Origin: Sphagnum magellanicum
Lineage: Eukaryota; Streptophyta; Sphagnopsida; Sphagnales; Sphagnaceae
Length of the DNA stretch: 64,000 nt
Reading direction: 5' to 3'
Assembly: GCA_021904315.1 (NCBI GenBank)
Contig: CM038923.1
Location: forward strand, 4,216,001 to 4,280,000
The notes beneath the pieces are model-generated. The model ran no database searches. It was not told the origin of the DNA and saw nothing but the letters and a program-made list of their open reading frames with translations. Each line of letters begins with the position of its first letter. Positions within the stretch are counted from its first letter, which is position 1. Below, piece by piece: positions 11,745 through 43,388 of the stretch. The position numbers and the translations under genes were made by a program.

Positions 11745-12895
11745 CACCAATTGACAGAAGTAGGTGTGACCAATCGAAAAAATAATGATGTTCGCAAGCT
11801 TTGGTATTTTTCCAACTTGTTGAAAGGAAGGGGAGGAGATTGGTTTGCTCAATGGGTCCAACCACACTATTAGGAGCCACATGTGCCCCCTTAGATCATT
11901 GCTTTATTCTTAAAATATTTTTATAATCTTTTTAATACGTCTTTCAATAAAAAATTTTAAATTTTTAAATTTTTCTTAATACTATCATGTTAAAGTGTAT
12001 ACTAAAAAATGTCCCAAAATATGTCATTAAAAAATATTTTCAAATTGTGCTTTTAATGTCAAAACTATTTTGAAATTATTTTTATGCAACTTTTAAACAA
12101 TGGTTACAAGAGGTTAAAAGTCCTTATACATATTTTTCACTCATTAGATTGAATCCAAATTTTTATTATATGTACATAATGTATTCACAATAACATTTTA
12201 TAATTATTTATTTATTTATTTTACAATCCAAAGTCCAAAAAATTAAGCAGCGGTTATGACTGTTTTTGGTGCATGTTAGTATGATTGCACCCCAATATAA
12301 AACAACAAAGCCACTATGACATTCTATAAGCTAATGTGTAACAAGCTTTTATTGCAAGGTTTAATGTGGTACACAATGAAAGACATGCAATAATTACTTT
12401 ACAAAATATGAAAGAAATATGAAATTGTCAAAGATTACTATGATAGATTATTACAATTATGCACTATAATGCCTCATTAACTAGACGATGTTTACCCACA
12501 AGAAATGTTTTGTGAAGGACTACATACCAAGTTGAAGATGGCAATACTTGGTTTACCTCAAAGAACCATTGTTGAAATTCAAAATTCAACAAGGATAATA
12601 GAAGATAAGCTACTACCTATTAAAAAAAGCCATAGTAAAGCAACAAGAAAAATCAACGATGAGGAGTTTGAAAAAGATTCAAAGGATGAAAGATATAAGA
12701 AAACAAAAAAAAAAAAACAAGGTGCATGTTGACACCTATCAAAGAGGTGTATATTACTTGAATTGTTATAATGAAAGGCATTATGGACACCAAGGAATGC
12801 AAGTTGTTGTAGAAGTTTTGCCAATTTGCAAGAATGACGATGACAACATAGACCAATGTCCAAAAAAGATATCAAAAAAGAAATGTTGATGTAAG
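11745..12895 (+). pseudogene. gypsy gag relic, split by a MITE
   Basis: The left part (11745-11853) reads NNDVRKLWYFSNLLKGRGGD followed by WFAQ, the standard retrotransposon gag core (the LKGxAxxWF region). A 439 bp MITE interrupts it. After the MITE come DYYDRLLQLCTIM with a stop shortly after, then an FCEGLHTKLKMAILGLP block (the FxxGLxxxxKxxxxxxxP motif of plant gag), then a Lys-rich tail. The 75-codon frame at 12505-12732 is the longest open piece. The family's gag packages the RNA into particles; this copy is broken. Confidence 0.75.
11854..12292 (+). mobile_element. MITE, GGGTCCAACCACACTA family, 439 bp, in gag
   Basis: Left terminus GGGTCCAACCACACTATTAG; right terminus, read inward, GGGTGCAATCATACTAACATG. 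CAAT flanks both ends (11850-11853 and 12293-12296). Taking out the element and one CAAT joins the gag frame in register, so the boundaries are independently supported. It aligns over most of its length with 42962-43388 and, with an internal deletion, with 45298-45536. No coding capacity. Confidence 0.82.
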
Positions 12896-17728: not shown

Positions 17729-18511
17729 GGGTGAAAACACACTATGGGGGGACCACTTTGGGCATTTTCACGACATGTATGTAATATATATTTCTAAAAA
17801 AAATTGTTGCATTTAATTTTGGGTTTCACTTTTGATGTTTGGGCTTGATATTTTTGATTTTCACAAAGTTAATGATATATAATATTATTTGAAAAAAAAT
17901 AAAGAATTAAATTCAAAGAATAATGGGTATACTTATGGTATATGTAGTATAATGAAACATGTTTTGCTTTTAGATTGCACTAAATTTGGTTTGAATTAGT
18001 TATCCAAAAAATGTTTGAAATGAAAAATTTTTAAAATGACCAACCTCACATCTTTGTCATCTTCCATTTGAAAGTGATTGTTTGTCAAAATGTTATTTTA
18101 CCACATACTTATGGTCATCATCCCCCAAAAACACCCATTTGTGATATGACAATTATCAAACTTTTCATATGGCTCACAAACTTATTCTAATCATATGGAA
18201 TCACAATGTTTAGTAAATATTACAAATTTCATAAAGACTAAAAATAATTTCAATCATTTTTGAGTATTTTTCATTTTATAATATGTTGTGATGTATATAT
18301 TTTTGGCACAAATATACTCTGACATCACATCATATTAAATTAAAAAGTGTAGTTTCTTTGGAATTTGACTTATTTGGGTTTTGACCTACCATAATATGCA
18401 AATATTGTGAAAATCCTTCATAATAATGACATGGTTGAAGTTCAAACATGGGACCCTTAAAAATAATACAATGTGACAACAACCCTAGCCCCCCCTAGTG
18501 TGTTTACACCT
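17729..18511 (-). mobile_element. MITE, GGGTGAAA family, 783 bp, opposite orientation
   Basis: Left terminus GGGTGAAAACACACTATG then GGGGGG; right terminus read inward AGGTGTAAACACACTAG then GGGGGG. AATT flanks both ends (17725-17728 and 18512-18515). The interior is the reverse complement of the neighbour at 16711-17473, so the strand given is only relative to that copy. About 255 bp separate the two. No coding capacity. Confidence 0.8.
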
Positions 18512-40580: not shown

Positions 40581-41578
40581 GATGGCAACTTTTAGCATTA
40601 TCTACATAACATCCACAAGTTTTGCAAACTTCATTCCATGTGGCTTTTCACATTTTTCAATCTCTAATGCAATGAATTGAACTAAGATAATATTTGGAAC
40701 ACCAAGTGGGTTGTCAATTTGTTTCCTCAGCTTTGATTTAAGGAAAAGCACAATGTATTAGAGTAGCATTCATCTTCAACAAAACCCAAAATTTAGATAG
40801 TGACAAGCTCTGCCAACTTTATGTACTTAAGAATTTTGTGGTAGAAGATTTGCAATGCTATCAAGGTGCACCAAAGTTTGTCAATGGATTCATGAAAAGA
40901 TGTTGAACATTAATTAGACTTGGGTGAGCCATGGGAACCCTTGTATAGTTTTGAACATAGTCAAATTCATTATGGATTATTGCAAGTCCAAGGCACTACT
41001 TGACAACAAAAGAACCACCCAACATTAAAGTGCACCCACCTTCCTTGAATACATAGTAGGCTTCTTTCAAGATATTCAAATGTGCGGTAAAAGTAGAATC
41101 AAGGTCCCCTTGAAGCCAATATTGCGAATAAATTGTTCCAATTGTATTCATTAATGGATGGGTTTGAAATCTTGACTCTAGTTTTACATTTAATCAGTTA
41201 TTGACTTACAAAACTACTTTCATTGATCACATAACATCTTCACACTTTTCCCTTGTCGCAATTGAAACCTCTCAATGAACAGTGATGCCCATACAATTCC
41301 CACTTTCAATTCAAAACATAAAGAATCACATAGGTTAATTGGAGAGACATGTTGTTATTCCATGATGATGGACTCATAATTTGTTGCATACAAAATTGTG
41401 AACTACTTTAAATACATAAGGTAGTGATCACATAGATGTGCATAACATGCATTTTAACATGGCAAATCTTCACTATAACCACATAATTGGGTGCAACCAC
41501 AATGAAAGGAGCCACTGGCAACAAGGTTGGAGTCCTTACCAAAGGTTACAATATAGATGTGGCTTTCATGTATTGGTT

Positions 41579-41614
<36 letters not shown>

Positions 41615-42961
41615 AAAATTATGTACACATGTGAAAAATCATTTCCACCACATGAATTATCTTATTTTGGACTAATTAATCAATTTTTCTGGTTCAAATT
41701 TCTTTCACGTAATGTTATTTGTAAAAAATAATTGTAAAAAAGTCATGGAATCATTATTTGTGTTTTTTGAATCCCAATTATGAATGAGCCCAAATTTAGT
41801 TTTTTGGACTAGATATTAATATTGAAACCAAATAATACTATAATGATATAAAAATAATTTTTTTTTTGCATCAAACTTGACATTATAATCAAATTTATAA
41901 CTTTTTTTAACCATGATCACAAATTTTGAACTATATTATAATCATTAAAGGTGTTTAAAATCAAAATCAGGATTATTTTGATTTGCACATGTACTTAAAA
42001 GGATTCAATGCATGTGCACATAAAAACATCAACACATGTGGCTTTTCTTATATTGAAGTATGTTAAAACCCATAATAAATTTGAAAACATTTGGTGAATA
42101 TTTGAATAACAAAAATCATAGTCAATTTTAAAGGTGTTTAAAAGCACAATGTCAACAAGTGTTTTGTGCATGATTAAGAATTATAATAACATAATGAAAT
42201 GATTTCAAATTCATGGGATTCTAGTTTCACGATTAAACAAACATAATTTTAAAGGATGGATAATTATTTTATTAACTACAATAATGGTTCTTTTCAAAGT
42301 AATGTAGGTATAATTTCATGACAATTAACAAGTGTTTTTAGCACTTTTTAATGTGACTACAACTAATTGCAAAAACACATCTTTTAGTTGAAAGAATTTG
42401 ACGAAGAAGTGGACTATTGTAAACAATGACATAATGGTTACTAACCTTAGCAAAAGTTCCACATCAAATAATAATTGTAGAGTTTTGTTAATGGCTTGAA
42501 AATTGAAATGCATATCCAAGTTCACCTTCATAAGCAATGTTTGATATTATTCGAGTACCTTATTTGTGGGTGACAACATTGATATTCACCTAGATTTTAT
42601 TTTTCATAGTAACTTATTGTTTTCTATTTCCATAATCTCAACAAATTTGAGCTTTAAATAACATTTTAGACTTTTACAAAAAAAATGGTGCAAACATTAT
42701 AGAACATTTTTTAAACAAGATACCAACTTTTTGTTTGAAAATGTTTGTACCACAAAATTGGTTCAATGGGGCCATGTAAGGGATATGAAACAAAAAAAGG
42801 GGTGTAGTGTTTTTGCATTGGGAATTTAACACCTTCATAAGTTCCTTGGAAAATGTTAACACCATCAATACTAAAATATACTAATCAACTTTAGTTGAGT
42901 TTGTTTTTGAATAATCAACAAAAAATTTATGACAACTATAATAAGGTTATCAACACAACAA
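40581..42961. other. AT-rich unassigned sequence
   Basis: Holds a TA run at 41583-41612. At 41487 the motif GGGTGCAACCACAATGAAAG then GAGCCAC resembles the left end of the MITE family at 42962, but no matching right end follows at a sensible distance, so it is probably a solo remnant. No gene recognised. Confidence 0.35.
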
Positions 42962-43388
42962 GGGTCCAACCACACTATTAGGAGCCACACGTGCCCCCTT
43001 AAACCATTGCTTTATTCTTAGAATATTTTTTATAAAAAAATTAATACGTATTTCCAAAAAAAATAAAATAAAATCTTAATACTATTATGTTAAGTTGTAT
43101 ATTTAAAAAATTTCAAATTGTGTTTTTAGTGTCAAAATTATTTTAAAACTATTATTATGTAGCTTTTAAACAATGGTTACAAGAGATTAAAAGTTTTTAT
43201 GCGTATTTTTCAATCATTAGATTGATTCCAAATTTTTATGACATGTACATAATGTATTCACAATAACATTTTATTAAAAATTATTTTATTTTATTTATTT
43301 ATTATTATTATTATCATTACAATCCAAAGTTCAAAAAATTAATTAGTGGTTATGACTACTTTTGGTACATGTTAGTATGACTGCACCC
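42962..43388 (+). mobile_element. MITE, GGGTCCAACCACACTA family, 427 bp
   Basis: Left terminus GGGTCCAACCACACTATTAG, right terminus read inward GGGTGCAGTCATACTAACATG. Nearly colinear with 11854-12292. Flanking 4-mers are ACAA and ACAT (three of four match). A TTATT run near 43290 expands this copy internally. No coding capacity. Confidence 0.78.

Follow-up and report, generated by a model that had tools for sequence, protein, structure and literature searches.

Short elements with GGGT-type inverted ends and 4-bp target duplications form a large group in the genome of a peat moss

Described systems and the structure of element A1

Plant MITEs are sorted into five superfamilies by the length of their target duplication and by their ends. 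A MITE survey of 207 genomes, four bryophytes among them, used the same five together with Micron; neither Sphagnum nor "4 bp" occurs in its main text. The Sphagnum genome paper gives 7.8% unclassified repeats and 6.8% CACTA, the most abundant classified type. 4-bp duplications are described for Sola elements, which have variable ends and have been reported from a moss, Physcomitrella (Sola1), and of which the Sola2 families use an AT-rich 4-bp target such as AWWT. Ginger elements have duplications of 4-6 bp, TG...CA ends and inverted repeats of 40-270 bp. These facts on Sola, Ginger, Sphagnum repeats and the MITE survey are drawn from PMC3627910, PMC9033089, PMC10741241, PMC13120521, PMC12550479, PMC11333200 and PMC9946827. 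The group of elements reported here was not found to be described in the literature on Sphagnum MITEs and DNA transposons, on 4-bp MITEs and on MITEs together with Sola in mosses, among the matches listed; Repbase may hold it.

The window is a stretch of 64,000 nucleotides of Sphagnum magellanicum DNA. A 439-bp element, A1, is located at 11854..12292 on the plus strand and was delimited by its paired ends, its CAAT flanks and its genome copies. Positions 11850-12296 read, in order, CAAT, GGGTCCAACCACACTA ... TAGTATGATTGCACCC, CAAT. The 5' inverted end GGGTCCAACCACACTA occupies 11854..11869 (plus strand) and the 3' inverted end, GGGTGCAATCATACTA on the minus strand, 12277..12292; pairing is imperfect, with 13 of 16 bases matching. 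The left and right target duplications CAAT at 11850..11853 and 12293..12296, to which no strand applies, were identified from the sequence and from the flanks of other copies. A1 has an A+T content of 76%, and a single frame of at least 35 aa, counted from stop to stop, lies wholly inside it, with a length of 39 aa. The element has no coding capacity, and there is no transposase gene inside. A1 thus combines the features by which a MITE is recognized: it is short (439 bp) and has inverted ends, a 4-bp target duplication and many similar copies. In size, structure, copy number and lack of coding capacity it resembles members of the five plant MITE superfamilies, but it differs from them in the combination of a 4-bp duplication with GGGT ends.

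Genome copies and the length of the target duplication

The genome, comprising 438,994,042 bases on 31 contigs, was searched for family A, to which A1 belongs. The search yielded 518 first-look candidates, 40 of which were scored, and the 39 scored copies besides the window copy were 82-87% identical. The family A 5' end has 100 exact matches in the genome, and the 3' end has 240 matches with at most one mismatch. Copies differed from their consensus by a mean of 10.5% (7.5-14.3%; 789 transitions and 571 transversions); family A copies are therefore old. Four family A 5' ends were observed on one strand of contig C7 (16375802, 16401440, 16432888 and 16464063) at distances of about 25.6, 31.4 and 31.2 kb, a spacing which tandem segmental duplication might give.

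The duplication length was determined with 30 copies fetched together with their flanks. Both ends of each copy were set where they agreed best with the consensus termini, and the flanks were ignored at this step. One copy (L012) was left out, its 5' end being absent. In the remaining 29 copies, identity between the 4-bp flanks was 0.85 as compared to 0.28 for mismatched pairs; exact 4-bp flanks were present in 17 copies, with a mean of 0.99 and a maximum of 5 in 300 shuffles. Lengths of 1-3 and 5-12 bp gave no signal in these 29 copies (0.17-0.34 as compared to 0.26-0.30 for mismatched pairs). Two further copies (L015 and L017) share their flanks with L008; they were therefore removed as well, and the three were counted as one event. 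In the resulting set of 27, exact 4-bp flanks were found in 15 copies (2000 shuffles: mean 0.75, maximum 5) and at least three of the four bases agreed in 22, while the other five (L004, L010, L024, L026 and L028) all agreed at two of four. No two of the 15 exact duplications have the same sequence (ACCC, AGTG and GTAG are examples); hence, no fixed target sequence is required. Their A+T content is 65% as compared to 70% in the flanks.

Duplications typical of other plant superfamilies were not observed among the family A copies. At 2 bp, as in the TA duplication of Tc1/Mariner, none of 29 copies was exact; at the 3 bp of PIF/Harbinger it was one of 27, with a shuffle mean of 0.65; and at 8 bp and 9 bp, the lengths of hAT and Mutator, it was none of 27. 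CACTA elements make duplications of varying length, and CACTA was therefore excluded on its ends, those of the group being GGGT. Ginger is similar in its duplication length; however, its TG...CA ends are absent from the group, in which GGGT...ACCC ends with an inverted repeat of about 16 bp are found instead. An earlier note, written from the window sequence, had described A1 as a member of a MITE family bounded by GGGT/ACCC, with a 4-bp duplication that does not match the usual plant superfamilies. The genome copies support this description: copy ends set by consensus alone give the duplication at GGGT/ACCC, and the tabulated flanks carry a signal at 4 bp only, which argues against the superfamilies with TA, 3-, 8- and 9-bp duplications.

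Two sources with 4-bp duplications have to be considered here. As a tentative reading, the group could represent non-autonomous members of a Sola1-type lineage from moss, mobilized by a Sola (DDD) transposase. It shares with Sola1 of Physcomitrella the 4-bp duplication, inverted ends and occurrence in a moss, and the ends of Sola elements are variable. However, no transposase was identified in elements with these ends among the pairs and loci examined, and the 15 different duplications with their A+T content slightly below that of the flanks do not correspond to the AT-rich target of the Sola2 families. For these reasons the group is not assigned to Sola here, but it may work like a Sola element. 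Alternatively, the source might be a transposon of Chapaev type, or another one related to CACTA (CMC), that duplicates 4 bp. Chapaev makes 4-bp duplications, and CACTA heads the classified repeats of Sphagnum; nevertheless, with GGGT in place of CACTA ends such an origin is unlikely.

Host sequence and related elements

The earlier note had also held that A1 splits a gypsy gag frame, and that this frame proves the insertion and fixes the duplication length. Upon joining the flanks with one CAAT, the left-hand GGDWFAQ indeed reads on in frame into YKTTKPL, and a stop follows after these seven codons. An identical reading frame results if 1, 7 or 10 bases are omitted instead; hence, the frame cannot fix a length of 4 bp. 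Since lengths equal modulo 3 behave alike and the stop comes early, this argument had to be given up as a proof, and the split frame is weak support for the 4-bp duplication. Furthermore, Pfam analysis revealed no gag domain in either flank of A1: the right flank gave one sub-threshold match (DUF5308, E 0.014) and the left flank none. To the right of A1, the host relic contains a frame of 83 aa (12481..12732, plus strand), which has 61 matches in the genome including itself, 48 of which hold stops by our own count. This frame thus belongs to a dispersed, mostly broken repeat protein, which makes a retroelement relic plausible as the host; the assignment to gypsy gag is not backed by Pfam. An empty site was not found in the genome, where the left-flank DNA of A1 matches itself alone.

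The window contains six elements belonging to three families with related ends, all on the plus strand; the five besides A1 had escaped the earlier note. A2 (42962..43388, 427 bp) is a second family A copy with 78% identity to A1 and flanks ACAA/ACAT, which agree at three of four bases. B1 of family B (41489..42364, 876 bp) is flanked by AATT/AATT; its own ends pair at just 9 of 16 bases, unlike other family B copies, in which clear ends are present. Element C1 (14078..14895, 818 bp) is of the GGGTGAAAGCACACTA type and has flanks GGAT/GAAT (three of four bases), the last two bases of its 3' end being changed. The related element C2 (16711..17473, 763 bp) is flanked by AAAA/AAAA, a low-complexity sequence, and C3 of family C (17729..18511, 783 bp) by AATT/AATT. 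Exact 4-bp flanks are thus present in four of the six elements, one of these flanks being AAAA, and three of four bases agree in the other two. When 200,000 pairs of window positions were drawn at random, 14 had at least 10 of 16 bases paired together with a 4-bp match; single elements therefore need the context of their family.

Family B gave 864 first-look candidates in the genome, of which 40 were scored; its flanks carried a signal at 4 bp only, with an identity of 0.68 as compared to 0.35 and exact duplications in 3 of 11 copies. Family C, searched with C3, gave 974 first-look candidates; 40 were scored, and the other 39 were 82-87% identical in the main piece. Three of the 40 scored family C places consist of two pieces. 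Two of these places span about 1.36 kb and share a gap of about 590 bp; the third spans 0.96 kb. The two places sharing the gap, C31:7366-8729 and C9:5141033-5142393, perhaps go back to one duplicated insertion or to an assembly duplicate.

A general end pattern was defined as GGGTNNAANCACANTA followed by a non-T base (V) 19 places on. The general end GGGTNNAANCACANTA has 1844 matches in the genome as compared to 94 for the reversed pattern, which served as control. Among the matches listed (100 of 1844, all on contig C1), 67 begin with GGGTGAAA by our own count, and many different sequences lie behind them. The commonest form of the 16-base inverted end is about GGGTGAAARCACAYTA. Measured elements are 0.3-0.9 kb long; a few reach up to 1.4 kb, and these carry inserts.

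Inverted ends, a duplication of 4 bp, a high copy number, the absence of coding capacity and further families with ends of the same type are direct observations. With these, A1 is very probably a non-autonomous cut-and-paste DNA transposon (MITE) of a large, old group of elements of about 0.3-0.9 kb which share a 16-base inverted end and an untargeted 4-bp duplication. If A1 moves as TIR transposons generally do, a transposase of DDE/D type supplied from another locus would bind the inverted ends, excise the element and insert it into target DNA cleaved with a stagger of four bases; repair of the stagger would then give the duplication.

Candidate sources of the transposase

Long or autonomous partners were searched for among pairs of ends. 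In 359 kb of sequence (77 partly overlapping records including the window), exact 4-bp flanks were present at 19 end pairs; 18 of these are 300-900 bp long, and the remaining pair is a 1370-bp family A copy with an insert and flanks ATGT/ATGT. In this copy (L031 1245-2614, C15:1427000-1431500) the insert measures about 0.9 kb and may be a solo LTR. When all 100 exact 5' ends of family A were combined with the first 100 of the 240 3' ends, 34 convergent pairs at a distance of at most 25 kb were obtained, with lengths of 277-591 bp in 33 cases and 1370 bp in the other. Among the general-end matches listed in a further set (100 of 347), at least five convergent pairs of 610-814 bp were recognized by eye. 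Two long candidates with general ends on contig C1 (6.5 and 2.9 kb) had no matching 4-bp flanks. A transposase within elements bearing GGGT-type ends was not found among the end pairs and loci examined; these negatives on the source transposase come from few, decayed loci.

A stretch of 5.9 kb (L049/L050), which contains a transposase-like gene, was considered as autonomous partner and rejected. In its relatives, homology extends past both of the GGGT elements found in the stretch; these are therefore nested in a larger element, which hosts them as two GGGT MITEs. The frames of this stretch had no Pfam match, and the ends of the larger element around this type of gene were not found at the loci compared. 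The gene belongs to a multi-copy family (L049, L050, L053-L062) with 36 matches and without Pfam match, copies of which carry nested GGGT MITEs; its places include C1:22301107, C1:22319522, C10:5064465 and C10:5082831. Two inverted pairs of this gene family, with partners about 18.4 kb apart, are located on contigs C1 and C10, and the partners on contig C1 share 99.98% identity over 5.9 kb.

Elements that encode DUF7869 (PF25273), a protein family which we take to be possibly Sola-related, were also considered as source. A search yielded 259 first-look candidates, and all 150 that were scored exceeded the cut-off, most of them being broken. The match at C1:18729327 lies 733 bp from a GGGT end at C1:18728594, and some others are also located near GGGT ends. 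However, the GGGT end at C1:18728594 (L073) is that of a distinct 638-bp MITE, flanked by AAAA/AAAA, beside the DUF7869 gene, and no such end with at most three mismatches follows the gene. At a second locus (L074) no such end with at most three mismatches was found anywhere in 7.5 kb; at a third, none was present on the expected strand within 1.4 kb past the gene, where one match with three mismatches lies on the other strand. This counter-evidence, from few, decayed loci, is weak. We regard a DUF7869 source as quite improbable. A link between DUF7869 and Sola did not appear in the literature among the matches listed. The DUF7869 genes themselves look like the remains of a large transposon family, whose own ends were not found at the loci read.

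Finally, the group might derive from PIF/Harbinger elements and have changed the length of its duplication. The ends of PIF elements often begin with GG, and the PIF/Harbinger transposase domain DDE_Tnp_4 is abundant in this genome (632 candidates; 150 of 150 scored were over the cut-off). The sole DDE_Tnp_4 element with clear ends (L067 225-3654, C6:7669000-7674000) has GGGCCAYTTTAGATSAGG ends, which also begin with GGG, but it differs from the group by its 3-bp TGA duplication and by the remaining end sequence. Five other fetched DDE_Tnp_4 loci had no convincing ends of any kind, and a PIF/Harbinger derivation appears very unlikely.

The 4-bp duplication together with GGGT ends falls outside the scheme of five superfamilies; hence, an annotation using these five classes would misfile the group or leave it unclassified. 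It is conceivable, if somewhat doubtful, that a TIR lineage outside the five plant MITE superfamilies, recognizable by GGGTGAAARCACAYTA-type ends and by 4-bp duplications at untargeted sites, is among the main sources of peat-moss class II DNA and is misfiled or left unclassified in this way. The ends and the duplication length given here suffice to annotate the group and to seek its transposase in other mosses.
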